Position numbers and translations under genes: made by a program | Notes under the pieces: model-generated | Told to the model about the DNA's origin: nothing | The model's input: the letters and a program-made list of their open reading frames with translations, nothing else | Database searches by the model: none | Source of the DNA: Pectobacterium wasabiae CFBP 3304 | GTDB lineage: Bacteria; Pseudomonadota; Gammaproteobacteria; Enterobacterales; Enterobacteriaceae | NCBI RefSeq assembly: GCF_001742185.1 | Contig: NZ_CP015750.1 | Location: 2,976,001 to 3,040,000, forward strand | Length of the DNA stretch: 64,000 nt | Reading direction: 5' to 3' | Shown: positions 2,373 through 14,625 of the stretch, piece after piece | Layout of the letters: every line of letters starts with the position of its first letter | How positions within the stretch are numbered: position 1 is the stretch's first letter

Positions 2373-3587
2373 ATGAAGCTCAATGCCAGACAGGTAGAGA
2401 CTGCCAAGCCCAAAGATAAACCCTACAAGTTAGCGGATGGTGGGGGCATGTATCTGGAGGTGTTCCCTAACGGCACCAAAAGCTGGCGCATGAAATACCG
2501 GATCGCAGGTAAAGAAAAACGTGTGGTGTTTGGCGTCTACCCGACCATTACCTTAGCCGATGCCAGAAGCAAAAGAGATGATGCTAAAAAGCTGTTGGTT
2601 AATGGGGTTGATCCGAGTGCGTTTAAGCAAGAAAGCAAACAAGCCCACATCGAAGAAGTGAAAAACACCTTTCAAGAAATTGCGCTCGAATGGCACTGCA
2701 TGAAAGTGAAGAAATGGTCTGCGGGGTATGCCTCAGACATTCTTGAAGCGTTCAACAAAGACGTCTTCCCGTTCATTGGTCAACGTCCTGTTGCAGACAT
2801 CAAGCCGTTGGAACTGCTAAACGTGCTTAAAAAGATGGAAGACAGGGGTGCTACCGAGAAAGCCAAAAAAGTGCGCCAACGCTGCGGCGAAGTGTTTCGC
2901 TACGCCATCGTGACAGGCAGAGCCGAGTATAACCCCGCACCAGATCTCACCAGTGTCATGCAAGGGCATGAGTCTACACATTATCCATTCCTGACCACTG
3001 AAGAGCTTCCTGCCTTTTTTAAAGCCCTTGCTGGCTACTCTGGTAGTGAATTGGTGGTGTTGGCCGCCCGACTAATGATCATTACTGGTGTTCGAACGGG
3101 TGAATTACGCGGTGCGTTATGGTCTGAAATCGATACTGATAAAGCGCTATGGGAAATTTCTGCTGAACGCATGAAAATGCGGCGTCCTCATATCGTTCCT
3201 CTATCCGTGCAGGCATTGGAAATTATTGAAAAAATCAGGGCAATGGCGGGTAATTTCCCTCTATTATTCCCTGGTCGTAATGATCCAAGTAAAACTATGA
3301 GCGAAGCCAGTATCAATCAGGTATTTAAGCGAATTGGTTATACCGGCCGCGTTACGGGGCATGGATTCCGTCATACCATGAGCACTGTTCTTCATGAACA
3401 GGGCTATAACTCCGCATGGATTGAAACCCAGCTTGCTCACGTTGATAAGAATGCTATCCGTGGCACCTACAACCATGCGCAATATCTCGATGGCAGACGT
3501 GAGATGCTGCAATGGTATGCCGACTATATGGCAAACCTTGAGAAAGGCGGCAATGTGGTGCATGGGACGTTTAATCGGCGTGGGTAA
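2373..3587 (+). CDS. P4-type tyrosine integrase
   Basis: The 404-residue protein has the P4/IntS layout. An N-terminal DUF4102 arm-binding domain (about 1-85, with KLADGGGMYLEV) is followed by a core-binding domain and a catalytic domain. R241, HGFRH (330-334), H356 and Tyr366 are all present, so it looks intact. It reads away from the tRNA-Thr remnant 185 bp upstream, the classic tRNA-att-int arrangement. Its own element is reduced: a convergent integrase of another element begins 127 bp after its stop. Confidence 0.93.
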   Translation: MKLNARQVETAKPKDKPYKLADGGGMYLEVFPNGTKSWRMKYRIAGKEKRVVFGVYPTITLADARSKRDDAKKLLVNGVDPSAFKQESKQAHIEEVKNTFQEIALEWHCMKVKKWSAGYASDILEAFNKDVFPFIGQRPVADIKPLELLNVLKKMEDRGATEKAKKVRQRCGEVFRYAIVTGRAEYNPAPDLTSVMQGHESTHYPFLTTEELPAFFKALAGYSGSELVVLAARLMIITGVRTGELRGALWSEIDTDKALWEISAERMKMRRPHIVPLSVQALEIIEKIRAMAGNFPLLFPGRNDPSKTMSEASINQVFKRIGYTGRVTGHGFRHTMSTVLHEQGYNSAWIETQLAHVDKNAIRGTYNHAQYLDGRREMLQWYADYMANLEKGGNVVHGTFNRRG

Positions 3588-3654
3588 GCCAGTGATCTTG
3601 GTGCGTAAGAAACGGTTGGCAGAATGCCCGAATGGTTTTACGACATACGACAAC

Positions 3655-3697
3655 GCTCCTGACGGGTTTTCTATCACATAGAAAGTCCGTCAGGAGC
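3655..3697. terminator. Hairpin between two convergent integrase genes
   Basis: GCTCCTGACGG (3655-3665) pairs perfectly with CCGTCAGGAGC (3687-3697). The inner sequence continues pairing imperfectly around a CAC loop. There is no long T-run on either side, so a bidirectional terminator role is inferred mainly from its place between convergent genes. Confidence 0.5.
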
Positions 3698-3713
3698 CAA
3701 CAAGCGCAGCGCG

Positions 3714-4973
3714 TTAGCCAGCCGTATAACTTCGCGCATAAATATACGGTGCGACATATCCTTCACGGTTGACGTCCAGATAATCCGACCACCATTGCAT
3801 CATTTCGATTCTGGCTTCCAGATGCTCCGCTTTATGCACATAAGCCGCCCGCACGCCGTTGCGTTCTTTGTGGCTCATCTGTCGCTCAATGGCATCCTTT
3901 GACCAGCGCCCGGACTCGTTCAGGGCGCTACAAGCCATAGTTCTGAAACCATGCCCACAGATTTCGGTTTTGGTGTCATAGCCAATTACGCGCAATGCTT
4001 TGTTGATGGTGTTTTCACTCATCGGCTTGTTCAGAGTATGTGCGCCCGGAAAAACGAAGACCGATTCGCCGGAAAGCGCCTGAATCTGTTTCAGCAGGGC
4101 GACTGCCTGCCGTGACAGCGGCACCAGATGTTCATCCTTCATCTTGGCTCCGCGTTCTGAGAACCTCACGCCGTTTACCGCTTCTCGCTGGGCGGGTACG
4201 CTCCAGATATGTGCTTTCAGATTGAATTCATTCCAGCGGGCAAAACGCAGCTCACTGGAGCGCAGAAAAACATGCAGATTCAGCTCCAGCGCCAGACGGG
4301 TGAGCATCCGGCCTTTGTAGTTTTCCATCTTCGCCAGCAGTTCAGGCAGGCGTTTTAGCGGCAGGGCGGGGTGATGTTGGGTCACCACCGGGGTCACGAC
4401 ACCGTCCAGATCGTAAGCCGGATTGTATTTGATGACGCCCTGTTGTACGGCGTGGCGCATGATTTTGGTTAGATGCTGGCGTACCCGTCCGGCGACGTCA
4501 TGCACGCCTTTGTCGTCAATCGCCTTAACCAACTGCGCCAGATGGCGGGTTTCAACCTGCGCGATATCCATCGCACCAATGGTGGGGAAAACGTAGCGTT
4601 TCAGGCAGATGAGAATTTTATCGGCGTGGGCGTCCGACCAGAGCTTAAGGCAACTGCTGTGCCATGCAGTGGCGACATACTGAAAGGTGCGGGATTCATC
4701 AACGGCGGGGTTGTTCGTTTTGCGAAGTTGGGAAGGGCTGATGCCGGATGCCAATAGCTTACGCGCCGCATCGCGTTTTTCACGGGCTTCCGCCAGCGTA
4801 GTCTGAGGATAGGGACCAAAGGCCAGACGGTTTTCTTTACCGCCGAGGCGATAGCGGAAATACCATAACTTAGCGCCGCTGGTAGATACCGTGAGGTACA
4901 GGCCTTGCGAATCAGTGAGCTTATAAGATTTTGCGAGAGGTTTCGCAGATCGGACTTTGCTGTCAGTTAACAT
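3714..4973 (-). CDS. P4-type tyrosine integrase, probable tRNA-Phe site
   Basis: This integrase of about 419 residues has an N-terminal DUF4102 domain (KLTDSQGLYLTV) and a C-terminal catalytic domain with Arg in FLRSSELRFA, HGFRT (His/Arg pair), SHKE and Tyr in AAYVHKAEH. I chose ATG 4973 (MLTDSKVRSAKP) over 4994 because family members start this way and GGGAG precedes it. It is clearly related to the integrase at 13047-14327. Both share the FLRSSELRFARW block and the HKAxH end. The degenerate tRNA-Phe 3' copy lies 160 bp upstream. It is probably the remnant of an older element at the same tRNA. Confidence 0.92.
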   Translation of the reverse strand: MLTDSKVRSAKPLAKSYKLTDSQGLYLTVSTSGAKLWYFRYRLGGKENRLAFGPYPQTTLAEAREKRDAARKLLASGISPSQLRKTNNPAVDESRTFQYVATAWHSSCLKLWSDAHADKILICLKRYVFPTIGAMDIAQVETRHLAQLVKAIDDKGVHDVAGRVRQHLTKIMRHAVQQGVIKYNPAYDLDGVVTPVVTQHHPALPLKRLPELLAKMENYKGRMLTRLALELNLHVFLRSSELRFARWNEFNLKAHIWSVPAQREAVNGVRFSERGAKMKDEHLVPLSRQAVALLKQIQALSGESVFVFPGAHTLNKPMSENTINKALRVIGYDTKTEICGHGFRTMACSALNESGRWSKDAIERQMSHKERNGVRAAYVHKAEHLEARIEMMQWWSDYLDVNREGYVAPYIYARSYTAG

Positions 4974-4974
4974 A

Positions 4975-5024
4975 TGAGGGTCACTCCCGTTCATCGAACT
5001 GAATGACCCACAATCTGACCCACA
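4975..5024. repeat. Arm-site-like repeats before integrase
   Basis: TGACCCACA occurs at 5004-5012 and 5016-5024 (12-bp period). An inverted near-copy, TGAGGGTCA (8 of 9), lies at 4975-4983 directly before the start codon. CATCGAACTGA precedes the doublet here, and the same words precede the doublet beside the tRNA-Phe integrase near 14363. Confidence 0.55.
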
Positions 5025-5134
5025 AATTCCCCGATACGAAGGGATAAATCAAAACGCATCGGAAAAGATTTTCACGCCAACTTATTGAATCGCAACAACA
5101 TAGGGATTGATAAGGAGGCATAAAAAAGGAAAGG

Positions 5135-5157
5135 TGGTGCCGGACTCGGAATCGAAC
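5135..5157 (-). other. Degenerate copy of tRNA-Phe 3' end, att site
   Basis: These 23 nt reproduce the outermost 24 nt of the tRNA-Phe gene at 14511-14534 except that CCC is reduced to CC. The copy lies in the same orientation. It bounds the element that ends at the intact tRNA and sits upstream of the third integrase, so it is probably the shared junction of two tandem elements. Confidence 0.8.
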
Positions 5158-5206
5158 ATCACCATACCTCATTGATTTTTATAGACAAGAATTGTATATG
5201 ATATTT

Positions 5207-5229
5207 TTTACCAGCTTATTTTTACCAAC
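5207..5229. repeat. Integrase arm-site-like repeats at the element's far end
   Basis: TTTACCAGC (5207-5215) and TTTACCAAC (5221-5229) match the words next to the integrase at the other end of the element (14375-14383 and 14387-14395). Shared words at both ends support one element with its own integrase. Confidence 0.55.
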
Positions 5230-5532
5230 AAATCATAACGTATGTCAATTTAAATCAATGATTTACTTAGCACCTCTGCAGTAGACACGGTTAGACGGTA
5301 AGTGCGAAAAGCAGTAGAGATCTACTCGCTTGTATACCATTTTTATACACTAGAATATAAAAGCACTTTTTGCTAAAAATAATAACTATATGTTTTTTAA
5401 TAATATTTTATGTGTGTTTGTGGATTGTATCTTAACTTTTATATTAAGGCTATATTTTTTTAAATTTACTTATTGATTATTACTCTCAAAATATAAGATA
5501 ATAGCATCTCCAAAATAATAGAGAGGAATTAT

Positions 5533-5733
5533 ATGAAAGAAACAAAAAGACTTATTAGGTTAAAAGAGGTGATCGATAAAACTGGCTATTGCAGGGCATG
5601 GATCTACAGACTAATTAAAAATAACAGTTTCCCCGCTCCGGTAAAAATTGGTGAGAGATCTATTGCTTTCGTCGAAAGCGAAGTTGATCAATGGATCGAT
5701 AGCAAAATCTTAAATTCACGTAAAGCCGCCTAA
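5533..5733 (+). CDS. AlpA-family excisionase/regulator
   Basis: This 66-residue MerR-like winged-helix protein contains RLKEVIDKTGYCRAWIYRLI (recognition helix) and FPAPVKIGERSIAFVESEVDQWI, the standard AlpA/Prophage CP4-57 regulator pattern. AGAGGAA precedes the ATG. AlpA proteins activate integrase or excisionase expression in P4-like islands. Here the gene lies at the opposite end of the element from the integrase and is probably its directionality factor or regulator. Confidence 0.88.
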   Translation: MKETKRLIRLKEVIDKTGYCRAWIYRLIKNNSFPAPVKIGERSIAFVESEVDQWIDSKILNSRKAA

Positions 5734-5867
5734 AATCATTATTAGCTATTTTATTTATACTTAATAAATTTGTTTTTGAAGTATAAAAATTCAAAAATAG
5801 AGCGAAAGCTAAATATGAAAAACACAAGCAATTAAAATAATACAAACCACCACTGTGGCTTGTATTA

Positions 5868-6128
5868 TTACTGTTGTTTATGTAATAAATACCTCCTGTA
5901 ATATGCGATAGCACTGTTTTGAGTTGTATTCATTATTTCTGCAATTTTTTTCCATTTTAATCCCGACTCTCTTAAGCTAAAAGCGAGATTTCGTTTCTCT
6001 TCGGCCTCTTTTTCGTATTCTTCACGAGGTAAAGAAATGTATCTTTTTACTGTCGAAACCGATACGAAAAATTTTTTTGCCATCTCTTTTTGTGTTATTG
6101 GCCTTTTAATCCTCTTCTTTACTATCAT
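5868..6128 (-). CDS. Small HTH replication-associated protein (RepB-like)
   Basis: The 86-residue basic protein has two helix-turn-helix patterns: ITQKEMAKKFFVSVSTVKRY near the N-terminus and GLKWKKIAEIMNTTQNSAIA near the C-terminus. A charged helix lies between them. It follows the rep gene by 19 bp with a strong GGAGG site. In ColE2 Rep the DNA-binding region is at the C-terminus of one protein. Here a separate small protein may supply part of origin recognition or copy control. The RepB label comes from position and motifs. Confidence 0.65.
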   Translation of the reverse strand: MIVKKRIKRPITQKEMAKKFFVSVSTVKRYISLPREEYEKEAEEKRNLAFSLRESGLKWKKIAEIMNTTQNSAIAYYRRYLLHKQQ

Positions 6129-6147
6129 AACTCCTCCAAAAATTTAA

Positions 6148-6975
6148 TTAGTTCTTTTGTTTTTCTTGGTGCTGTGTTTTCCTTGCCCGAGCAGACTGTA
6201 TTTCAGAAAATCGACCTTGGGAAAAATTTTGCCATGTCCATTTGCAAATACTTTTGCAAATTTGGCTCACTTCACTATGCGATAACAGATCGTTAACATT
6301 ACAATGGTTATTCAACATTATCGCGCGAGAAAGCATATGCTCATAAAAATCAAGGTATTTTTTGTTCGCTTTATATTTTAAAACATCTTTGTAAGATATA
6401 ACCCTTAAATCTTCAAATAAATTAACATTACGGCCTAAGCCATATACTGGACTTGTTTTGGTATTTTTAGTGATTATAGTATCAGGCACAAAATCTGCTA
6501 AATAATCTAAATTATATGCTGGTATATTTGTCCAGGTAGTTCGCCATTCATTTATATTGGTAGGGTTTTTTATTAAAATATCTGCATAGGCTCTGTCCGC
6601 ATCCAGTCTTTCCGTGAAACCTCGCTGAACAATTGAGGCTAATCGCAACGGCTTCATTCTTGCTGAGTCAGCCTTCAGGACAGGGTTTTTTAAGGCATAG
6701 AGTAGGTGTGCGTGACCGTTTTTTGTATTTTGAATTATTATATTAGGTTTAGGTAAATTTGCTAAATCCCAAGCAATGGCTCCATTTTTATGGTCTACAT
6801 CGAAAACCAGACCATTTATAAAGGACTTATTATTAAAAGCAATGTATTTTTTTAATAGTGCTTTATCTTTGAGTGCTTTGTAAACACCATTATTAAAATT
6901 ATCGCAGCACAAGGCGTATTTTTGGATTTTATTTTCAAATTTTTCTTTATTATATATATCTTGTTTTAATAGCAT
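6148..6975 (-). CDS. repA: ColE2-type plasmid replication initiator/primase
   Basis: The 275-residue protein aligns in my memory with ColE2 Rep. Shared blocks are GLVFDVDHKNGAIAW, the PNIIIQNTKNGHAHLLYAL block and YGLGRNVNLFEDLR, followed by a short basic tail. These proteins bind the plasmid origin and synthesise a short primer for DNA polymerase I. AGGA precedes ATG 6975 at 8 nt. It is a little shorter than ColE2 Rep, and the C-terminal DNA-binding part seems trimmed, with a small HTH gene directly downstream. A working replicon inside an integrated element would allow copy-up after excision. Confidence 0.88.
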   Translation of the reverse strand: MLLKQDIYNKEKFENKIQKYALCCDNFNNGVYKALKDKALLKKYIAFNNKSFINGLVFDVDHKNGAIAWDLANLPKPNIIIQNTKNGHAHLLYALKNPVLKADSARMKPLRLASIVQRGFTERLDADRAYADILIKNPTNINEWRTTWTNIPAYNLDYLADFVPDTIITKNTKTSPVYGLGRNVNLFEDLRVISYKDVLKYKANKKYLDFYEHMLSRAIMLNNHCNVNDLLSHSEVSQICKSICKWTWQNFSQGRFSEIQSARARKTQHQEKQKN

Positions 6976-7630
6976 TTTAAATTTCCTTTTGGTAATTACT
7001 CCTTTGATAGTTAGTAAAATTTTTCAAATATGAGTCTTGTTGTTTTTTTATTTTTAATAATGCATTTAAAAATATTGTCAAGTGGCCCATAAGCCATTTC
7101 AGATATTAATGTTTTATTTGGTCTTATTTTTATAAAGCAAAGCAATATATTTATTTTAATTATGTTGTTTGTTGGTTTGTTAATTAATTTTATATTTATA
7201 AATTTAAATTAAAAAACAATATGGAAATAGAGATAACTGATAGGTTTTATATGGTTTTTTATAATTGTTTTATAAGTTAGTAAGGTATGATTTTGGAAGT
7301 GATCTGAAAATCATTAATGGAAATAATACCTAATGTTTTTTGAGAATTTTTTTTAAATTTAATTTTTATTAAACGGGATCTGATTTTTCTAATGTAAAAA
7401 TTATTTTAATCTTCTTAACAGGTGGAAAGCTCACTTTTTTTCCTTCCACCTTTCCTAGTGTGTGGGCGTTCCAGCCGTCAAGTGGAGCATCGCTTCGCTC
7501 CAACTTCAAAACCAAAACAAAAAAACCGGAACAAGTTCCCCCTTTACCCTTACGGGCGCTACCGCCCATTTGACAATTTTAAAAAATGACTTATTTGGTG
7601 GGTATACCCAATAAAAAAAGGAGAATTACT
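6976..7630. other. AT-rich region upstream of rep, no convincing gene
   Basis: Very AT-rich DNA covers the rep leader. ColE2 plasmids place an antisense copy-control RNA in this leader, but I cannot identify one by eye. The only sizeable frame (7369-7569, minus) lies over a hairpin and has no clear ribosome site, so I do not call it. Confidence 0.5.
7421..7450. repeat. Hairpin repeat copy A
   Basis: GGTGGAA (7421-7427) pairs with TTCCACC (7444-7450). It is preceded by TTAACA and followed by TTTCCTAGTGTGTGGGCGTT. The same framework recurs at 7802-7860, giving two related copies about 380 bp apart around a small gene. Confidence 0.5.
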
Positions 7631-7765
7631 ATGTTTAGTTTTGCGATAGCGGCGGGAATATTATGTTTTATTGTTTATTTGTTAGAAATGGCATTTAAAA
7701 GCGTAGCAAGTGGAATAAGTAGCAGTATTAAAAAATACGGCCAAGACGGGGATGAAAACCAATAA
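7631..7765 (+). CDS. Small membrane peptide, 44 residues
   Basis: ATG 7631 follows AAGGAGAATTACT, a strong ribosome site. The product begins MFSFAIAAGILCFIVYLLEM, a single hydrophobic helix, then a polar tail (KKYGQDGDENQ). It lies between the two hairpin repeats in the plasmid-like core. Function is unknown. Confidence 0.5.
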   Translation: MFSFAIAAGILCFIVYLLEMAFKSVASGISSSIKKYGQDGDENQ

Positions 7766-7804
7766 ACCAAAACCCCAACCCCCAACCCCCAACCCCGCTT
7801 AACA

Positions 7805-7835
7805 GGTGGAAGGCTCGCTATGCGAACCTTCCACC
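7805..7835. repeat. Hairpin repeat copy B (strong stem)
   Basis: GGTGGAAGG pairs with CCTTCCACC, and the inside continues with TCGC-TAT-GCGA, giving a stem of 13 pairs. TTTGTTTAGTGTGTTAGG follows. It is related to copy A at 7421. Its place after the small gene would suit a terminator; a single-strand origin is another option. Confidence 0.5.
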
Positions 7836-7933
7836 TTTGTTTAGTGTGTTAGGTCGTTTCGCGCCGTAAAGTGTTCGCTACGCCCCAGCAAGCTGGGCAC
7901 TTGACTGCACTACTCTCCCAAAAAAAAGCCAAT

Positions 7934-8134
7934 TTAAGGCCAATTTAATAAAATAGATGGGTAAAATTTTGAAATAAGCATTATTAATATTAAAACCACA
8001 CTTACAGCATTAATTAATAAAAAATAATCGCTTTTAAATATTGCCGCTAATGCAACACCGCCGCCAATAACAAGTAAAAAAAAACCGAACCATCCAGATT
8101 CAAGAAATATACTAATCATTTTTTTCTCTTGCAT
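7934..8134 (-). CDS. Small membrane protein of the mobilization operon
   Basis: The product of up to 66 residues has two hydrophobic stretches (about 10-32 and 36-58). It overlaps the end of the upstream TraD/MobC-like gene, as expected for coupled translation. Start could be 8134 or 8119. It closes the minus-strand operon divergent from the relaxase. Function is unknown. Confidence 0.5.
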   Translation of the reverse strand: MQEKKMISIFLESGWFGFFLLVIGGGVALAAIFKSDYFLLINAVSVVLILIMLISKFYPSILLNWP

Positions 8135-8417
8135 TAACTTTTGCTATTTTTTTTACTTTTCGTTCGCTAATTTCTTTATCACCCCACTTCAAAATATCAC
8201 TTCTGAATTTATCATTTTTGTAATTAAAAATTGATAATAAGCTAATTACCTTATGCAAATTATCTATGCCTGGAATGTCATATTTTAATATTTCTGCGGT
8301 TATTAGACGCATGTCTTTTAATTTTTTTTCTTTCTCTATCTTTTTTTGCTCACTTTCTATTTTCGCCAATTCTATTTTTAACCTTTCTTTCTTTTGCTGC
8401 AAACTTAACTTTGCCAT
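8112..8417 (-). CDS. TraD/MobC-like accessory mobilization protein
   Basis: From ATG 8417 (GGAG upstream) the product has about 101 residues. It begins MAKLSLQQKKERLKIELAKI, a charged coiled-coil stretch, followed by KLKDMRLITAEIL. This matches the pattern of small TraD/MobC proteins that help MobQ relaxases at oriT. The gene is divergent from the relaxase at 9232, as in other MobQ plasmids. The longer frame to 8450 lacks a ribosome site. Confidence 0.6.
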   Translation of the reverse strand: MAKLSLQQKKERLKIELAKIESEQKKIEKEKKLKDMRLITAEILKYDIPGIDNLHKVISLLSIFNYKNDKFRSDILKWGDKEISERKVKKIAKVNAREKND

Positions 8418-8508
8418 AATAATCATTCTCCAATATTTTATAATTTTCAACTTCTTCTATTTCTTTTTCTTTTTTAAATAAAAAACGAATAAACTTAATT
8501 ATTTTCAT
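8350..8508 (-). CDS. Small basic overlapping ORF, 52 residues
   Basis: ATG 8508 overlaps the stop of the upstream gene as ATGA. The product begins MKIIKFIRFLFKKEKEIEEV and is strongly basic. It overlaps the start of the TraD/MobC-like gene by 68 nt in another frame. Overlapping mob genes are common on small plasmids, but coding is supported only by the coupled start. Confidence 0.35.
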   Translation of the reverse strand: MKIIKFIRFLFKKEKEIEEVENYKILENDYYGKVKFAAKERKVKNRIGENRK

Positions 8509-8720
8509 CCTTTTTTTAATCTCACTTTGTTTTCTATGTTTACAAAAAAAACATTTTGAACCTGCATTAAATATTCATTGCCAAATTCTTCATACTTCTT
8601 TTTATCCACACAAAAATAAGCTGTATAAGGTTCGTTGTAAAAATCTTTTAATTCAAGCCTCAATCGTTCATTTAATATATATTTTGTTTTTCTATACTGA
8701 GTTTTTGTTTTAAAAAACAC
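8505..8720 (-). CDS. Hypothetical protein of mob operon, possible second half of a split gene
   Basis: The frame gives up to 71 residues from a GTG at 8720 (IKYILNERLRLELKDFY-like charged text, then YTAYFCVDKKKYEEFG). No good ribosome site is seen, and the frame overlaps the previous gene by 49 nt. A one-base change in the A/T-runs near 8710 would join both into one protein of about 140 residues. Family unknown. Confidence 0.4.
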   Translation of the reverse strand: MFFKTKTQYRKTKYILNERLRLELKDFYNEPYTAYFCVDKKKYEEFGNEYLMQVQNVFFVNIENKVRLKKG

Positions 8721-8905
8721 TTAAAATAACCTTTAAATATATTTAACTCTACATCAGATGGTTCTGTTTTTATTTTTCCATCGTCGTTTGAAAATATACA
8801 ATAATTATTTTCTTTCAGGTATGAGGTGTAAAAATTAAATATACTATTAGCAGTAACATCCAATGCATCGAAATCTTGCGCGAGAGCGTTTGTTTTTATA
8901 TTCAT
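8672..8905 (-). CDS. Hypothetical protein, first gene of divergent mob operon
   Basis: The 77-residue product starts MNIKTNALAQDFDALDVTAN. AGGAAA precedes ATG 8905. It is the first gene leftward from the oriT-like region, divergent from the relaxase. I recognise no family. It may be truncated by a frameshift that separates it from the frame at 8505-8720. Confidence 0.5.
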   Translation of the reverse strand: MNIKTNALAQDFDALDVTANSIFNFYTSYLKENNYCIFSNDDGKIKTEPSDVELNIFKGYFKCFLKQKLSIEKQNIY

Positions 8906-9059
8906 TTTATTTTCCTTTTTTTATTGGGTATACACGTTAATTAGGTTATTTATTTATATTGTCAATGCTGGTATTTACTTTTATTTTTTTTTGGTTATTT
9001 GCTTTTATATAAATGTTTTATTTTTTTGCTGTGCGTTAGTAAAACTACAAATGCCCACT

Positions 9060-9231
9060 TATACATTGCCCTTCGGTCAATGTGTGGTCTCCTGCCGAGG
9101 GCTAGGCTACCGCCCTATCGCCGCTTAAGCGGCAATATGTAAGCCTGGCTCCGCGAATCTGGCGCAACGCTGGAGAGGCTTACAGCAAACAAAACACCGA
9201 GCACACTAACGCCGAGAGGGGAGGGCACACG
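9060..9231. other. Probable oriT region with serial hairpins
   Basis: The 326-bp gap between divergent mob genes is far more GC-rich than its surroundings on its right half. It holds ACATTG...CAATGT (from 9070), AGGGC...GCCCT, palindrome CCGCTTAAGCGG (9121-9132), and TGTAAGCCT (9138-9146) pairing with AGGCTTACA (9176-9184). On the minus strand, next to the relaxase start, stands GTGTGCCCTCCCC. It resembles the RSF1010/R1162 nick-region core GTGCGCCCTCCC as I remember it. Location and structure fit a MobQ oriT; the nick site is not proven. Confidence 0.6.
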
Positions 9232-10059
9232 ATGGCCATTTTTCATTTAAGTTTTAAAATATTAAAAAGAAGCGAAGGAAAAAGTTCTTTATATCTTGCA
9301 GCTTATAACTCCAGAACGAGATTAAAAGACGAAAGAACAGGTTTGATTTTTAATTACGAAAAGAAAAAAGAAGACTTAATGCATAGTGATATTTTATTAC
9401 CACCCAATGCACCCGAAAGCTTTAAAAATAGATCCGTTTTATTTAATGCCATTGAGTCCATTGAGGCGCGAAGGGATTCGCAGCTCGTCAGATATTTTAT
9501 CGTAGCCTTGCCCAGAGAATTAACATTAACCCAAAATAAAGAATTAATTACAAACTACATAAATAAAAACTTTATTAAAAAAGGCATGTGCGCCGATTTA
9601 GCCATACATAACGATAAAGATAATAACAACCCACACGCACACGTTATGTTAACAATGCGTGAAGTAAACGAAGCTGGTTTTTTACCTACAAAAAATAGAG
9701 ACTGGAACGACAAAAAAAACGTAGAAATATGGCGCAGAAGCTGGTCTGTTTTAGTTAACAAAAAACTTAGGGAAAATAACAAAAATGAATATGTTAGCAA
9801 TTTGTCTTTTTTGAGACAAAAAGAGTTACTAATTAATAAAGAAAAAGAGAATTTGGAAAATGGAGAAATTGATAAAGCAGAAAAATACATTAATACATAC
9901 ATACACAATAAAAACAAAACAGCAAAAAAAAGGATTTCCCGTAAAAAATTTATCGGCAATAAAAAATTAAAAACCTACGCTGATTCAGCGGATGGTAAAT
10001 ATATTATGACTAAATACAAAAGGGAGGTAAAAAACAAACCAGCAAAGAGAGTAAATTAA
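9232..10059 (+). CDS. mobA: MobQ-family relaxase (MobA/MobL)
   Basis: The 275-residue protein begins MAIFHLSFKILKRSEGKSSL, typical of MobA/MobL. Motif I carries the likely nicking tyrosine (Tyr25 in AAYNSRT). Motif III is HNDKDNNNPHAHV (126-138), with metal-binding His126, His135 and His137. It would nick and pilot one strand at the adjacent oriT using a helper's type IV secretion. It is shorter than RSF1010 MobA, lacking a primase domain, as on many small plasmids. Codons are very AT-rich. Confidence 0.92.
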   Translation: MAIFHLSFKILKRSEGKSSLYLAAYNSRTRLKDERTGLIFNYEKKKEDLMHSDILLPPNAPESFKNRSVLFNAIESIEARRDSQLVRYFIVALPRELTLTQNKELITNYINKNFIKKGMCADLAIHNDKDNNNPHAHVMLTMREVNEAGFLPTKNRDWNDKKNVEIWRRSWSVLVNKKLRENNKNEYVSNLSFLRQKELLINKEKENLENGEIDKAEKYINTYIHNKNKTAKKRISRKKFIGNKKLKTYADSADGKYIMTKYKREVKNKPAKRVN

Positions 10060-10061
10060 AG

Positions 10062-10286
10062 TTGCTTTTTAATAGCTTATTAATTAAGTTTAATAACGCA
10101 GTAAAAACAAAAAAACAAGAAACACCAAAAAAAATATCTGAGGACGATTTTTTAAAGAAAATGAAACCAGATGAGTATATTGAAAACGTAAAAAAAGAGG
10201 ATTTAAATTATGCAAAAAATATTATTTGGAACGACGAGAGAAGGGTTAGAAATAACAACATACCAAACAACAAATTTAGAATTTGA
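10062..10286 (+). CDS. Hypothetical protein after relaxase
   Basis: A 74-residue lysine-rich frame starts with TTG at 10062, 2 nt after the relaxase stop, so coupling is likely. Text such as KKISEDDFLKKMKPDEYIENVKKEDLNYAKNIIWN is hydrophilic. It could be the shifted C-terminal tail of the relaxase or a separate accessory protein. Function unknown. Confidence 0.4.
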   Translation: MLFNSLLIKFNNAVKTKKQETPKKISEDDFLKKMKPDEYIENVKKEDLNYAKNIIWNDERRVRNNNIPNNKFRI

Positions 10287-10587
10287 TTATTTAAATAAAA
10301 AATATAGAATTGAGATATATATAAAACAAAGAAATGATGCAGAAAAAATAAAAGAGGCATTGAAAGAGGGTAAGGTTTTTACGCCAGAAAAAAAAGAAGT
10401 GATATACAAAATAAAAAATATAGAGTTAGTAGTTAAATCACCATTTTCTAAAATTAAAACTTCCGCCGACAGAGAAAGTGTTTTTAATTTCGACGGTGTA
10501 AATTATAGTGCCATTATTTGCGCTTTTAGCGTCGAAGAAGAATTAAAAAGGCTAAAAGAAATAGAAAAAGAAAATGAAGATTGGTAA
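10210..10587 (+). CDS. Hypothetical protein, mob operon
   Basis: The 125-residue product begins MQKILFGTTREGLEITTYQT. GAGG precedes the ATG. It overlaps the previous frame by 77 nt. The product is soluble, Lys/Glu-rich with mixed beta-like segments, and ends EELKRLKEIEKENEDW. It is last in the relaxase operon, before a hairpin. No family recognised. Confidence 0.6.
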   Translation: MQKILFGTTREGLEITTYQTTNLEFDYLNKKYRIEIYIKQRNDAEKIKEALKEGKVFTPEKKEVIYKIKNIELVVKSPFSKIKTSADRESVFNFDGVNYSAIICAFSVEEELKRLKEIEKENEDW

Positions 10588-10594
10588 TAAAAAA

Positions 10595-10621
10595 GGTGGT
10601 GTACGTAAAATATACACCACC
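10595..10621 (-). terminator. Rho-independent terminator
   Basis: GGTGGTGTA pairs with TACACCACC. On the minus strand the stem is followed by TTTTTTATT, so it best terminates the leftward zinc-ribbon gene. On the plus strand the hairpin also ends the relaxase operon, with a weaker tail. Confidence 0.75.
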
Positions 10622-10644
10622 GTTAAAAATTAACGATGAAAATT

Positions 10645-10953
10645 TTATCGGTACCAAACTACTTTATTTATTTTAAATAACGCCCTTATTATTGCAGGGA
10701 GAAACATTACGAAAAAGAAAACAACAAAACCTACAATAAAACCAACAAGCGCAAATGTTTGTATACCTATGTACATTCCACAAGCAAAGCCCACAATAAG
10801 GCCGAACATACCAGTAAGACCTAAGGTTGGTTTTATTTTTTCTAGGGCCCTTTTAAAATGGCCTTGAAATGTAGTTTCTTTTTCGGCATTACAGTTGGGG
10901 CACACGGTAGCATCATCATTGACAACGCTTTTGCAAAATGGGCAGATTGTCAT
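10645..10953 (-). CDS. Zinc-ribbon membrane protein
   Basis: From ATG 10953 (AAAGAGGA upstream) the product has 102 residues. It has an N-terminal zinc ribbon with two CxxC pairs (CPFCKS, CPNCNA). A polar linker and two hydrophobic helices follow (roughly 48-70 and 72-95), with glycine-rich turns. The zinc ribbon would face the cytosol. Such proteins often act as small stress or regulatory membrane proteins, but I cannot name a function. Cargo of the element. Confidence 0.7.
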   Translation of the reverse strand: MTICPFCKSVVNDDATVCPNCNAEKETTFQGHFKRALEKIKPTLGLTGMFGLIVGFACGMYIGIQTFALVGFIVGFVVFFFVMFLPAIIRALFKINKVVWYR

Positions 10954-11013
10954 AATATCCTCTTTCTTAAAATCACATAAAATCAATTTGGGATAAAGTT
11001 ATAATTATATCTT

Positions 11014-11532
11014 CTACTTGCTTACAATCTGAGCTGGCGATAATGATATTTGGTTACTCGCTAAACCAACATTATCAATTCCTATGATCCCTTTAACTGT
11101 AATCATATTACCAACATTGTATTTTTTTAGAGCATCATGTTTAACAAATACACCTGCCTTACATTCGCTATATCCACTGGAGATAATTCCAGAGTCAAAA
11201 ATAAAAACAGCTTCTGTGCCTTTAAAATTTGGATCTCCACCAAATAGTGGTCCGGATTCAGCTACGTTAATTATTTTTTCTGTAAGTTCAACATATTTAC
11301 CATTCCATTTTTCTTCGGCCATATATTGGTTCTTTTTAAAATCCAAACAAATTATTTTTAAGGATGTTTTGGTAAGGGATTTTTCATCTAATTCATTTTT
11401 CTTTGAATTAGCAATGTTTGATATTGAAAGTTTATTTAGTTCGCCTGATAACGAATTATATGAGCTTTGCAGTTGTTGGCAACCCGATAAAATAAAAGAA
11501 GAGAGTAGAAAAAGTCTGGTAATAATTTTCAT
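11014..11532 (-). CDS. OB-fold (tRNA_anti-like) lipoprotein
   Basis: The 172-residue protein has a lipoprotein signal, MKIITRLFLLSSFILSGC, with Cys18 as lipidation site. Residues about 60-170 (YMAEEKWNGKYVELTEKI, then VGNMITVKGIIG) match the tRNA_anti-like OB-fold pattern found in small exported bacterial proteins. It is cargo of the element, between the zinc-ribbon gene and the DnaJ gene. A ligand is not known. Confidence 0.7.
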   Translation of the reverse strand: MKIITRLFLLSSFILSGCQQLQSSYNSLSGELNKLSISNIANSKKNELDEKSLTKTSLKIICLDFKKNQYMAEEKWNGKYVELTEKIINVAESGPLFGGDPNFKGTEAVFIFDSGIISSGYSECKAGVFVKHDALKKYNVGNMITVKGIIGIDNVGLASNQISLSPAQIVSK

Positions 11533-12039
11533 ATTAAATACTCCGTAATAACAACGCTAGTCCCCATCATGCAAACCTCCTTTAAGTGAGTCTTACTTTC
11601 CGCGCGAAAGGATAGCATCAAATAGCAACTTCTCAACAAAAATGATCGATAAAAGAGATCAATAAATAATTATTGATAGTTTTTAACGATTAAATTGTGG
11701 TTCATCGATCGGTGTTTTGATTGGTTATCTCGATCGATAAAAAAATAACGATAGTTTCTGGCTATTGTTTTTCCTGTTTTGATCGTTTTAAGCGATATTG
11801 GCATGGCGTTATTTAATTGTTTTGTGTCAGATGATTACGGAGATTGTTTGCTGTATAGATTGGTTTTACACAGTATGCAGGCTTCTCTGGGTAGGAGAAT
11901 TTCTGGTCAGAGGATGGCCAACAGCGAATAGTTGAATGATACAGAACGGCAGCGCACGCTGTTTTTTGGGTGGGGAGATAATGCCTTTGTATTGGTGGGG
12001 GCGCGGAGGAGCCATCCCACCTGCAGTAATTTTAGTATT
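11533..12039. other. Gene-free region with clustered GATC/ATCGAT words
   Basis: Five GATC sites lie within 141 bp (11644, 11657, 11707, 11732, 11781), with repeated GATCGATAA and TTATTGAT-like words in very AT-rich DNA. No frame with a ribosome site was found. It may be a promoter/operator region or a replication-related site; nothing decides this. Confidence 0.4.
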
Positions 12040-12951
12040 TTAAAACTGTGATGCAGGTAATGTTGAAAAATGTGTATTGCCATTAATTACAGGATAAAAA
12101 GTTAACGAATTATCACTATATTCTATTCCTGTTGTGGTTTTTCTTTCAATCATAGTTATTGGTTCAGATATTTGAACGCATCCAGTTTTTATATTTTGAG
12201 TTTTAACTCTATATATTCCTACTGGGATTTTTTCGAGGACGGCATAATTTCCGGCAGGAATAAAAACATCTCGTAAGAATTTTGAAGTGTTTTTATCTTG
12301 TTCAAATGTGAATCTAACATATATGTCTTCATTGTTTCTGGTGTTGTCTAATGTTAGAGATGATAATCCATTGCGTCTATCTTTTTGATTGAAAATAGTT
12401 GGGGTAATAGGCCACTTTCTATTTTTTACAGACGCATTGCATATATTACTGCTGTTAACAAAAGTTTTTTGTTTTGATGGTTCGATAATCTGTGAGTTAT
12501 CGTTTTTATTATTTGTTAAGCTAACAGATGTTTTGAATATACCACTTATTATCGCGTATGCGACAAACCCTATCACACATAAACCAAATCCTAACCTTAA
12601 TAATGAAAATATAGAAAATATAAGATCAATTGTTTTGGTTATGAATGAATTCTTATCATTTTTCACTTTTTGTGTCGGTGTCGATATTTTTGTCTGTGCA
12701 TTTTGTTTTAATGTTGCTTCAGCCCTTTCTCTCCATGTTTCTTTTATAATCCAAGAGTCATGTTCCTTTCTTTTTTGTGGATCACTTAAAATTTCATATG
12801 ACGAGTTAATAATCTGCATTATTCTGGCGGCATCGGGATTATCTTTATTTATATCTGGATGATATTTTTTTGCCAATGAACGATAAGCTGCTTGTATTAC
12901 CTCTATTGGAGCATCTTTTGAAACCTTTAGGTTATCGTAATGTGTTCTCAT
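12040..12951 (-). CDS. J-domain membrane protein
   Basis: The 303-residue protein has an N-terminal DnaJ domain (about 1-65) with HPD at 31-33. A basic linker, one transmembrane helix (about 115-137) and an exported C-terminal region follow. The last part contains RFTFEQDKNTSKFLRDVFIPAGNYAVLEKIPVGIYRVK, a beta-rich segment. J-domains recruit DnaK. Here a membrane-spanning, non-housekeeping version is carried as cargo. No Cys-rich or CTD region of true DnaJ is present. Role unknown. Confidence 0.8.
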   Translation of the reverse strand: MRTHYDNLKVSKDAPIEVIQAAYRSLAKKYHPDINKDNPDAARIMQIINSSYEILSDPQKRKEHDSWIIKETWRERAEATLKQNAQTKISTPTQKVKNDKNSFITKTIDLIFSIFSLLRLGFGLCVIGFVAYAIISGIFKTSVSLTNNKNDNSQIIEPSKQKTFVNSSNICNASVKNRKWPITPTIFNQKDRRNGLSSLTLDNTRNNEDIYVRFTFEQDKNTSKFLRDVFIPAGNYAVLEKIPVGIYRVKTQNIKTGCVQISEPITMIERKTTTGIEYSDNSLTFYPVINGNTHFSTLPASQF

Positions 12952-13046
12952 TTTTTTTCATCTATTTTTATAAAATGACATGACTTTTTATATCATAAGT
13001 TATGTGGTCTTTTCTATCATGACCACATAACATCATGAATTTAAGG

Positions 13047-14327
13047 TTATTTATGAGATTCACTCATTGAAAATTCAAAAGGCATGATATGTTTATCCTT
13101 ATTAGCATCCAAATAATCAGCCCACCATTGAAGCATAAGCCTACGTTGCGTAATATGCTTTGCTTTGTGCGTATAAGCTGCACGAACGTTATTTTGTTCT
13201 TTATGACTCATTTGCCTTTCTATGGCGTCTTCTGTCCAGATACCGGACTCAACAAGGCTACTACAAGCCATCGTGCGGAAACCGTGGCCGCATATATCTT
13301 TTTGAGTGTCATAACCCATAAGCCGCAATGCTTTATTAACGGTATTCTCGCTCATAGGTTTACGATAATCATGACAACCGATAAATATCAAACCCTCACC
13401 ATCGCTAATATCATAACTAATCTCTTTTAGCTCTTTCAATATATCAATGGCTTGATGACTCAACGGCACATAATGAGGTATGCGCATTTTAGATCCTCGC
13501 TCAGAAAATCTAACGTTTTCGATCTCGTCTCTTTCTGGCGGGATAATCCATAAAGCATTTTTAAAATCTATTTCAGGCCAACGAGCGAAGCGTAGTTCAC
13601 TCGACCGAATAAAAACTAATAAAGTGAGTTTTAAAGCTAATACAGTGAGCCTACGGCCTTTATACGCATCTATACGACTTAAAAGATCAGGTATCTGCTC
13701 AAGTTCAAGCGCTGGGTAATGCGTTCTTTTAGGTGTGATTAACGTGCCGCCAAGTTCATTAGCGGGATTATGGGTAATCATATCTTCCTGAACGGCATAA
13801 CGCATAATAGCGGTAATACGTTGTTTTAAACGTGAAGCGGTTTCGTGTTGGCCTTTAGCTTCAATTTTACGCAAGGGGAGAAGCAGATCGCGAGTGGTTA
13901 GTTTCGTAATATCTTTTGAACCAAGAGCCGGGAAAAGATGATTGATAAGACTGTTTAGAATCCGTTCGCTATGTTGAGGTATCCACCGCTCACTGACAGA
14001 CATTTTTTTGTGCCAGGCCCGCGCAACAGCTTCAAACGTGAAATCTCCGCACTCCTCAGCTTTTACAGCTTTTTTTTGCTGTAGTGGGTCAACACCGCAA
14101 CCTAACAGTGTTTTCATTTCTATGAGCTTTGTACGAGCTTCTGAGAGCGATATAGAAGGGTAAGTGCCAATTGAGAAGACTTTTTGCTTACCATCATAGC
14201 GATAGGCAACCTGCCAATACTTCGACCCGTTAGGATGCACCAGCAGATATAGCCCCTTTCCATCAGATAGCTTGATCTGCTTGTTGGAAGGCTTGGCGTT
14301 TTTTACAGCAATATCAGTTAAGCGCAT
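13047..14327 (-). CDS. P4-type tyrosine integrase at tRNA-Phe
   Basis: The 426-residue integrase has a DUF4102 N-terminal domain (KLSDGKGLYLLVHPNGSKYW), a core-binding middle and a catalytic C-terminus: Arg in FIRSSELRFA, HGFRT, SHKE and Tyr in AAYTHKAKH. It appears intact. Its start is 183 bp from the tRNA-Phe 3' end, so this is the element's own integrase. It is related to the integrase at 3714-4973, consistent with both using tRNA-Phe. Confidence 0.95.
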   Translation of the reverse strand: MRLTDIAVKNAKPSNKQIKLSDGKGLYLLVHPNGSKYWQVAYRYDGKQKVFSIGTYPSISLSEARTKLIEMKTLLGCGVDPLQQKKAVKAEECGDFTFEAVARAWHKKMSVSERWIPQHSERILNSLINHLFPALGSKDITKLTTRDLLLPLRKIEAKGQHETASRLKQRITAIMRYAVQEDMITHNPANELGGTLITPKRTHYPALELEQIPDLLSRIDAYKGRRLTVLALKLTLLVFIRSSELRFARWPEIDFKNALWIIPPERDEIENVRFSERGSKMRIPHYVPLSHQAIDILKELKEISYDISDGEGLIFIGCHDYRKPMSENTVNKALRLMGYDTQKDICGHGFRTMACSSLVESGIWTEDAIERQMSHKEQNNVRAAYTHKAKHITQRRLMLQWWADYLDANKDKHIMPFEFSMSESHK

Positions 14328-14348
14328 AGCAAGCCCCCTTGTGCAAAT

Positions 14349-14395
14349 GTTGGTAAAAATCTCATCGAACTGAGTTTACCAACTTTTTTACCAAC
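14349..14395. repeat. Arm-site-like repeats beside the tRNA-Phe integrase
   Basis: TTTACCAAC is repeated at 14375-14383 and 14387-14395 (12-bp period), with its exact inverse GTTGGTAAA at 14349-14357 nearer the integrase start. The same word occurs at the opposite end of the element (5221-5229). Confidence 0.6.
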
Positions 14396-14469
14396 AAAAT
14401 GGGAGCGCTGCCAGTAGATTTTAACGGACAGTAGTAGACAAGCGGAAGGGGGTAACTTGTTGACTTTAC

Positions 14470-14499
14470 AAAGCAAAACGGACGTCAGTAGACGTCCGT
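14470..14499 (-). terminator. tRNA-Phe terminator
   Basis: On the minus strand ACGGACGTC-TACT-GACGTCCGT is followed by TTTTGCTTT, starting 12 nt after the tRNA 3' end. It is a standard intrinsic terminator. Confidence 0.8.
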
Positions 14500-14510
14500 T
14501 CCTAAATGAT

Positions 14511-14586
14511 TGGTGCCCGGACTCGGAATCGAACCAAGGACACGAGGATTTTCAATCCTCTGCTCTACCGACTGAGCTATCCGGGC
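14511..14586 (-). tRNA. pheV: tRNA-Phe (GAA)
   Basis: The 76-nt gene reads GCCCGGATAGCTCAGTCGGT at its 5' end, has anticodon GAA in TTGAAAA, a TTCGATT T-loop and an encoded CCA. It is intact although an element is inserted at its 3' end, because the element restores the sequence. Its position next to speC matches pheV of E. coli, a well-known integration hot spot. Confidence 0.97.
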
Positions 14587-14596
14587 AACGGGGCGC

Positions 14597-14625
14597 ATTA
14601 AACCGTATTGGCCGCGTGGCGTCAA
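14597..14625 (-). promoter_or_regulatory. tRNA-Phe promoter
   Basis: On the minus strand TTGACG (14625-14620), a 17-bp spacer and TTTAAT (14602-14597) stand just before the tRNA. The downstream GCGCCCC is a GC-rich discriminator typical of stringently controlled stable-RNA promoters. Confidence 0.75.

Follow-up and report, generated by a model that had tools for sequence, protein, structure and literature searches.

Integrative and mobilizable elements (IMEs) carrying replication genes are known, examples being SGI1, BcenGI2 (Rep_3) as well as GISul2 and others (RepA/RepC) (PMC5704250), and SGI1 was described to replicate from its own origin of vegetative replication (oriV) when an IncC helper is present (PMC7433901). 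EARL islands have been described as genomic islands that occur in Enterobacteriaceae and encode a MOBQ relaxase and a P4-like integrase (PMC6035254). Here, we analysed a stretch of 64,000 nucleotides (the window; positions 2,976,001-3,040,000 of the 5.04-Mb single-contig genome of Pectobacterium wasabiae CFBP 3304, contig NZ_CP015750.1), which contains an element integrated at a tRNA-Phe gene. We consider it likely that this element is an IME of a small enterobacterial family combining a P4-type integrase and an AlpA-family regulator with a ColE2-type replicon and an exchangeable mob module, and that it undergoes the cycle proposed below. Sequence comparison shows its boundaries and gene set, that the kit recurs and that one relative contains it precisely doubled, at two sites. 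An initial annotation of this DNA started from the premise that mobilizable islands usually lack a plasmid replicon, which is too strong, SGI1, BcenGI2 and others carrying Rep genes (PMC5704250) and SGI1-like islands PF03090 Reps (PMC7433901).

As the initial annotation had proposed, the element is located between a copy of the tRNA-Phe 3' end and the intact gene. The intact tRNA-Phe (14511-14586, minus strand) was identified by ARAGORN, and the left-end copy (5135-5157) differs from it by one deleted C. Gap-free identity of both ends is confined to a 7-bp core, TGGTGCC, constituting the final 7 nt of the tRNA, which would fit the overlap region of a tyrosine recombinase. The island spans 5135-14517 and measures 9,376 bp from core to core, with an integrase and matching attachment (att) sites framing one unit. 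Family matches were obtained for each of the proposed components, i.e. the ColE2-like Rep and its helix-turn-helix (HTH) partner, MobQ, AlpA and the P4-type integrase:

5135-5157, plus strand: attL, core TGGTGCC (5135-5141) followed by tRNA-Phe-like 3' sequence minus one C
5221-5229, plus strand: arm-type integrase word TTTACCAAC, +86 from the attL core
5533-5733, plus strand: AlpA-family regulator (PF05930, 2.5e-21)
5868-6128, minus strand: HTH partner of Rep (HTH_7, 3.5e-07)
6148-6975, minus strand: ColE2-type Rep, a primase-family initiator of 275 aa, open frame (PF03090 Replicase, 2.1e-31)
7070-7110, minus strand: rep leader and candidate oriV, with TATCTGAAATGG at 7094-7105 and TTGACA at 7076-7081
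9232-10059, plus strand: MOBQ relaxase, nuclease domain open (MobA_MobL, PF03389, 2.5e-54)
13047-14327, minus strand: P4-type tyrosine integrase, open frame (Arm-DNA-bind_3 and Phage_integrase, Pfam)
14349-14395: three arm-type words (14349 minus, 14375 plus, 14387 plus), the offsets -162 and -124 being kept in relatives
14511-14586, minus strand: tRNA-Phe restored by the element, attR core at 14511-14517

The 16-mer GGACTCGGAATCGAAC is present in two exact copies in the window; allowing up to 3 mismatches, there are 2 matches compared to 0.41 expected, a number reached by 7 of 100 shuffles. For the word TTTACCAAC, already noticed at both ends in the initial annotation, we found 4 copies in 64 kb compared to 0.53 expected (1 of 100 shuffles reaches 4), every copy lying at most 165 bp from an att core. 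These words are not due to chance. In relatives with words at both ends (L013-L016, L150, L067 and L070) they are placed at approximately +72 and +86 from the left core and at -162 and -124 from the right core, L067 showing an additional offset of -136; the window keeps +86, -162, -136 and -124. No arm words were found in L072, and L068 shows only its right end. The attL lacking one base is also present in E. coli (L013, L014, L015, L016 and L150); in P. brasiliense (L067) and K. indica (L072) one more change accompanies the deletion, whereas no base is missing in E. asburiae (L070). In 1536 of 5426 E. coli genomes, one place covers at least 80% of the empty site obtained by joining the sequences on either side of an E. 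coli relative. The GC content is 0.30-0.33 in rep, mob and cargo, 0.42 in int and 0.52 right of the tRNA. Directly left of attL, at 2373-4994, are two further P4-type integrase genes, which probably belong to tandem islands at the same tRNA-Phe.

The kit recurs in integrated form in other bacteria. In E. coli ECONIH5 the order is AlpA, HTH-Rep, an unknown gene, MobC, MobP relaxase, an unknown gene, integrase and tRNA-Phe, with identities to the window of 61% for HTH, 64% for Rep and 93% for the integrase, and P. brasiliense CFBP8736 (L067) shows the same gene order. The integrase is 93-94% identical to these E. coli and P. brasiliense relatives, with pairwise ratios of nonsynonymous to synonymous substitution rates (dN/dS) of 0.05-0.09, and the relaxase of the tRNA-Phe relatives belongs to MOBP (PF03432). 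The E. coli and P. brasiliense elements are 94.9% identical over 3,194 bp spanning attL-AlpA-HTH-Rep and the next gene, suggesting a recent exchange between the genera. ECONIH5 contains two copies, at pheV and pheU (L013 6906-14183 and L150 8707-15984), in different flanks; they are identical across the entire 7,271-bp element, the only mismatch in 7,402 aligned bases being located left of the attL core. In G358 (L157), belonging to another enterobacterial genus, the kit resides at ssrA with an unrelated integrase (34% identity to that of the window) in the order ssrA, integrase, MobP, MobC, zinc ribbon, lipoprotein-like gene, Rep, HTH and AlpA, with identities to the window of 71% for Rep, 77% for HTH and 53% for AlpA. 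Rep, relaxase, AlpA and integrase therefore being found together at tRNA-Phe, twice in ECONIH5 and once in P. brasiliense, and at ssrA, the earlier proposal of a single unit is borne out, as is the expectation of finding the set at tRNA-Phe elsewhere, there with a MOBP relaxase. AlpA and HTH-Rep are convergent in all four elements, i.e. those of the window, ECONIH5, P. brasiliense and G358, and because this order is kept with two unrelated integrases we rejected a later insertion of the plasmid genes into an older island. A plasmid that landed by chance in an older tRNA-Phe island, in two events, is very unlikely: the tandem islands with their own integrases to the left (2373-4994) and the existence of ColE2-type MobQ plasmids with related Reps would accord with it, but AlpA/HTH-Rep has the same order and place with two unrelated integrases and the unit moves as a whole in ECONIH5.

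Among 25 genomes of the genus, Rep (E ≤ 1e-60) and the integrase (E ≤ 1e-180) are each present in 2, and MobQ (E ≤ 1e-60) only in the window's own genome. In the wider family, 3 of 392 genomes contain Rep at E ≤ 1e-60, one of these (G054) showing a Rep-HTH remnant with no Int or Mob found there, and 13 of 295 harbour Reps of greater distance (E ≤ 1e-20). The AlpA-to-mob stretch of ECONIH5 is matched in 28 of 5426 E. coli genomes, with a coverage of at least 80% only in ECONIH5. Within the best 120 of 278 Rep matches, the window's own being excluded and P0030-P0032 dropped as partial, the longest contig exceeds 100 kb for 12 of the 28 full-length relatives of at least 62% identity (P0002-P0029) and for none of the 13 relatives of 53-59% identity (P0033-P0045); the more distant P0057 (46%) is also on a contig of more than 100 kb, and contig size does not show context. 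The listed relatives include Reps from Klebsiella, Salmonella, Cronobacter and Cedecea (P0004, P0010, P0013, P0016, P0018 and P0020). Five islands of the same integrase clade (L014, L015, L016, L070 and L072) have no Rep match. An RNA-controlled replicon in the Rep-less relatives was rejected, Rfam matches in 6 loci, among them the Rep-less L014, L070 and L072, being restricted to tRNA and 5S.

The PF03090 match assigns Rep to the Replicase-family primase-initiators of ColE2-type replicons. Its C-terminal residues 182-271 match chain 3vw4_A (E 1.4e-4), which we take to be ColE2-P9 Rep, and PF08708, representing a PriCT/HTH origin-binding C-terminus, gave no match in Rep at E 0.01. The HTH partner is also found beside rep in L013, L067, L157 and six plasmids. 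For Rep, dS is finite in 20 of 21 pairs, with dN/dS values of 0.11-0.34; 5 of these pairs include the window and give 0.11-0.14. Saturation is absent (dS < 1) in only two pairs, i.e. ECONIH5/P. brasiliense (0.17) and the plasmid pair L147/L149 (0.12), so that recent upkeep of Rep in integrated copies is read from one pair. The Rep tree leaves 13 inner branches open and does not order the Reps of plasmids and of integrated elements; a scan of viral contigs gave 4 pattern matches, none of them a relative.

Within the rep leader, TATCTGATATGG and a nearby TTGAC(A/T) are kept, the remaining leader not being conserved. The 12-bp word TATCTGA[AT]ATGG has 16 matches in 2.26 Mb scanned, overlapping loci included, 15 of which are positioned upstream of a rep of at least 57% identity, and it is present in 9 of 9 distinct rep loci at this identity, plasmid or integrated (window, L011, L013, L057, L067, L147, L148, L149 and L157), L157 having played no part in defining the word. 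In three less closely related ColE2-type loci (L049, L054 and L055), the reverse complement of its core, TATCAGATA, is found on the downstream side of rep, and L050 and L053 contain TATCTGATA at other places on their contigs. We regard the upstream word as a candidate origin or a candidate control site for Rep/HTH, the data fitting either. An origin directly downstream of rep, as in ColE2, was rejected, no common motif being found downstream of the HTH gene and a similar core being present upstream instead. The Rfam scan of the window returned only tRNA at or above the gathering score and one chance-level match (E 0.99). Rep might alternatively act as primase for the complementary strand of transferred single-stranded DNA, the element never multiplying in the donor. 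The ColE2 Rep family being a primase family (PMC5862659) would agree with this, as would the many relatives keeping Int and Mob without Rep, from which it also follows that Rep is not needed for integration. We hold this to be distinctly improbable, as leader and upstream word are common to small free plasmids whose sole annotated replication gene is such a Rep-HTH.

Comparison with plasmids suggests a mosaic make-up. The nearest plasmid Rep is encoded by Citrobacter pKAM621_5 (L011; 72%), the only one of 3023 plasmid records with Rep match falling into the 60-80% identity band, with none above. The four plasmids with the nearest Reps (L011, L147, L148 and L149; Rep 57-72%, the last three 57-59%) each have a MobQ-like frame, some unannotated, which is just 34-43% identical to that of the window; we therefore dropped the idea of plasmids never combining Rep with MobQ. 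In pKAM621_5, typed as non-mobilizable, an unannotated MobQ-like frame of 358 codons starts at 4156. The window MobQ is nearest to the plasmids pRGI00192 (L010) and pC82067_3_6k (L012), with 70-72% identity and 37-50% for the small mob genes; L010 and L012 have no match to the window Rep or HTH partner, and L012 carries a different 1.7-kb rep gene. Rep-MobQ pairs are thus ordinary on plasmids, but the MobQ operon of the window belongs to another branch. Because E. coli 4.4-kb plasmids share MobC-MobP DNA with the MOBP islands (approximately 80-91% over longer pieces), mob modules evidently do move between plasmids and islands. These 4.4-kb plasmids were rejected as the free form of the ECONIH5 element, their Rep showing 31% identity to that of the window and forming a long distant branch in the tree. 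The origin from a ColE2-type MobQ plasmid proposed in the initial annotation stands insofar as such plasmids with related Reps exist; a whole-plasmid ancestor is less well supported, because the integrated relatives use MOBP and the plasmids with the nearest MobQ lack a matching Rep and HTH. In our interpretation, the window element would consist of the backbone of a tRNA-Phe IME whose mob cassette has been exchanged.

The element encodes its own relaxase, with the C-terminal tail out of frame. It is assigned to MOBQ by NCBIfam MobQ (228 bits, cut-off 200) and matches structure 4ht4 (4.3e-28). The surrounding module consists of:

7570-7626, plus strand: 57-nt stretch repeated in inverted orientation at 8909-8965 (81%), located at the distal end of the leftward mob operon
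7934-8905, minus strand: leftward operon of small open reading frames (ORFs; 7934-8134, 8112-8450, 8505-8720 and 8672-8905), divergent from MobQ
8906-9231, plus strand: intergenic candidate origin of transfer (oriT), with the strongest block, common to three plasmids, at 9050-9091
10062-10286, plus strand: final part of the MobQ C-terminal tail, out of frame, as judged from plasmid homologs
10210-10587, plus strand: protein of 125 aa encoded downstream of MobQ; counterparts exist on pRGI00192 and pC82067_3_6k

None of the small leftward ORFs opposite MobQ matches a Pfam family above its cut-off; 8112-8450, 8505-8720 and 8672-8905 have counterparts of 45-50% identity in L010 and L012, and possibly the operon comprises relaxase accessory genes. 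Of the oriT-like hairpins mentioned in the initial annotation, only the one at 9020-9180 was folded, and this proved weakly non-random (z -2.13, 3 of 200 shuffles being as good). Both 57-nt arms (7570-7626 and 8909-8965) match the same stretch of L010 and L012. Two further MOBQ relaxase genes exist in the same chromosome as open frames of 476 and 505 aa (L059 12088-13458 and L060 18795-19901).

Several observations weigh against an IME that still replicates and transfers. The MobQ frame of the window stops at 275 aa, the homologs of L010 and L012 having 356 and 355 aa, and because this tail is broken the window copy may be unable to transfer, its mobility being uncertain. The island is present as a single copy in the window's genome. 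A decaying island, i.e. a former replicating IME rendered immobile by the frameshifted relaxase tail, with Rep and AlpA as leftovers, would account for the shortened MobQ with its end out of frame, for the single Rep copy and for the Rep-HTH remnant of G054. We judge this unlikely, though deserving serious weight, since the frames of Rep, AlpA and Int are open and conserved, MobQ retains its nuclease domain in full, the codons before the stop showing a dN/dS of approximately 0.2 at saturated dS, and att cores and arm words are intact. Concerning replication, the window's own Rep pairs are all saturated (dS > 1.6), and the oriV is predicted from sequence patterns, ColE2 origins usually being located downstream of rep (PMC2831885). 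In front of the 11 more distant reps (L046-L056), for some of which the available upstream sequence is short, the upstream word was not observed, and L151 and L152 have a variant instead of the exact form. Among islands that have this integrase and are completely in view, just 3 of 11 encode Rep (window, L013, L014, L015, L016, L067, L069, L070, L072, L073 and L074; integrase approximately 72% identical or more, with 10 kb or the far end in view; the second copy L150 and the contig-end-cut L068 and L071 being left out), L069, L073 and L074 having no AlpA or relaxase in view either; Rep is present at 1 of 80 loci retained from 171 confirmed integrase loci. The same set, expected in the initial annotation as a free plasmid as well, was not found as such: searches of plasmid records revealed neither a circular form nor a free plasmid with the whole kit, and none of 72,556 records contains this integrase at 60% identity or more, the 39 matching at E ≤ 1e-100 all being below 60%. 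The 8 plasmids examined have no AlpA or Int match at E ≤ 1e-3. Finally, the doubling in ECONIH5 could result from gene conversion, from a second entry of the element from outside or from an error in the assembly.

On balance we favour the replicating and mobilizable IME, for which the gene families point to excision, replication and transfer. In the proposed cycle AlpA, likely an excision control protein judged by its family, would turn on excision, and Int would recombine the TGGTGCC cores, freeing a 9.4-kb circle. Rep, together with its HTH partner and leader, would copy the circle from an origin probably located just upstream of rep. MobQ would then nick oriT and the strand would be exported by the type IV secretion system (T4SS) of a helper; in the recipient, Rep would re-establish the element and Int would insert it at a tRNA-Phe. 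A possible helper T4SS is encoded in the same chromosome at approximately 5.009-5.020 Mb, with VirB4/VirB11-type ATPase genes at approximately 5.008-5.017 Mb (L162 8289-17092). VirB4 is over the cut-off for PF03135 and just under that of TIGR00929 (599 bits compared to 643), VirB11 is over its cut-off, as is a coupling protein (PF10412) at approximately 5.019 Mb, and ORFs between these genes, as we read them, resemble further VirB genes. Tentatively, we extend the IME reading to a facultative plasmid/IME family, which seems quite possible: a largely chromosomal clade of ColE2-type replicons with integrases at tRNA-Phe/ssrA would multiply as excised circle, reinsert at several tRNA genes per cell as in ECONIH5 and trade MOBP/MOBQ cassettes with small plasmids. 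Our literature searches, with subscription papers mostly outside their reach, found no paper on this AlpA/HTH-Rep family. Such elements offer compact systems of 7-9 kb for testing island excision, copying and mobilization, the identical copies at both ECONIH5 tRNA-Phe genes being a testable case for island replication feeding multi-site insertion. They blur the line between small mobilizable plasmids and enterobacterial genomic islands, and for plasmid typing a ColE2-type Rep match in a draft genome need not imply a free plasmid.

Between the MobQ module and the integrase the element carries cargo and a non-coding block:

10645-10986, minus strand: zinc-ribbon membrane protein (Pfam match below cut-off)
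11014-11532, minus strand: lipoprotein-like protein, judged by its N-terminus
11631-11798, no strand: non-coding, GATC-rich block of 165 bp common to other islands
12040-12951, minus strand: DnaJ-domain protein (PF00226, 6.5e-19)

The zinc-ribbon protein has a relative in L157 (31%) and the lipoprotein-like protein a distant one in the INF177 island (29%). Five window proteins compared with PADLOC gave no match to defence genes. In the ssrA island of G358 there are a gene with a RelA/SpoT domain and a small one showing a weak match of SLATT type (L157 3077-5613), and beyond AlpA, possibly outside the island, a 1851-aa protein matches PADLOC PDC-S37 and Hhe (L157 12670-18225). A P4-like phage satellite, suggested by the P4-type integrase and AlpA, is extremely unlikely: the 15 element proteins scanned gave no match to families of P4 primase-helicases, capsid proteins or packaging proteins, a relaxase is present and the scan of viral contigs yielded no Rep relative. 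The block at 11631-11798 recurs with 68-83% identity in 13 other loci; most of these encode other relaxases or integrases, and two (L016 and L070) the integrase type of the window. Using the L016 copy as query, it was found in 615 of 5426 E. coli genomes, in chromosomes only, and in 3 records of the plasmid collection, including K. pneumoniae pINF177.2 and a 4.8-Mb record. It is possibly a regulator-binding, partition or transfer site. The copy of the block in E. coli E2348/69 belongs to an island, taken by us to be an EARL island, which contains genes for MobQ, TraD and pilins and a gene annotated RepL.

Compared with known systems, the EARL (ROD21-like) islands such as ICEKp258.2 share a P4-like integrase, MobA/MobL (MOBQ) and the lack of a T4SS with the window element but differ by insertion at Asn-tRNA, a size of mostly 21-30 kb and TraD and pilin genes, and the excerpts at hand do not mention PF03090 (PMC6035254, PMC10763509). 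The window element sits at tRNA-Phe instead of Asn-tRNA; TraD of the INF177 island, used as sole query, had no match in 5101-14600 at E ≤ 0.01, and no pilin family was matched by Pfam among the element ORFs scanned, no pilin query having been run. MOBQ42 plasmids such as ColE9-J resemble the element in the ColE2-type Rep, the MOBQ relaxase and a divergent small mob gene (PMC6856555) but are free plasmids, the word "integrase" being absent from the main text of PMC6856555. pKAM621_5 is similar in Rep (72%), HTH (60%), the same leader word and a MobQ-like frame (43% over 184 aa), whereas it has no AlpA/Int match at E ≤ 1e-3 and is typed non-mobilizable in PLSDB; pRGI00192 and pC82067_3_6k possess the nearest MobQ (70-72%) and small mob genes but no match to the window's Rep, HTH partner, AlpA or Int. 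The 11.2-kb plasmid pHS87b of Pseudomonas aeruginosa, encoding a P4-type integrase and occurring both free and at a tRNA gene, differs by having no known replication genes and by using tRNA-Thr (PMC4739549). Closely related are the tRNA-Phe MOBP elements of ECONIH5 and CFBP8736, on which our literature searches found no paper, with the same gene order (integrase 93-94%, AlpA 76%, HTH-Rep 59-65%), att core and arm-word offsets, but with a MOBP relaxase with MobC-like partner and other cargo. Among published elements, the SGI1-like GIVchO27-1 and GISen-26 are likewise IMEs with a PF03090 replication protein, differing by trmE insertion, an SGI1-like backbone, PriCT-1 in Rep and a predicted AcaCD-dependent promoter (PMC7433901), whereas the window element has AlpA and MOBQ and is inserted at tRNA-Phe instead of trmE. 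The window element is probably a replicon-bearing IME, joining IMEs with PF03090 Reps already described in PMC7433901.

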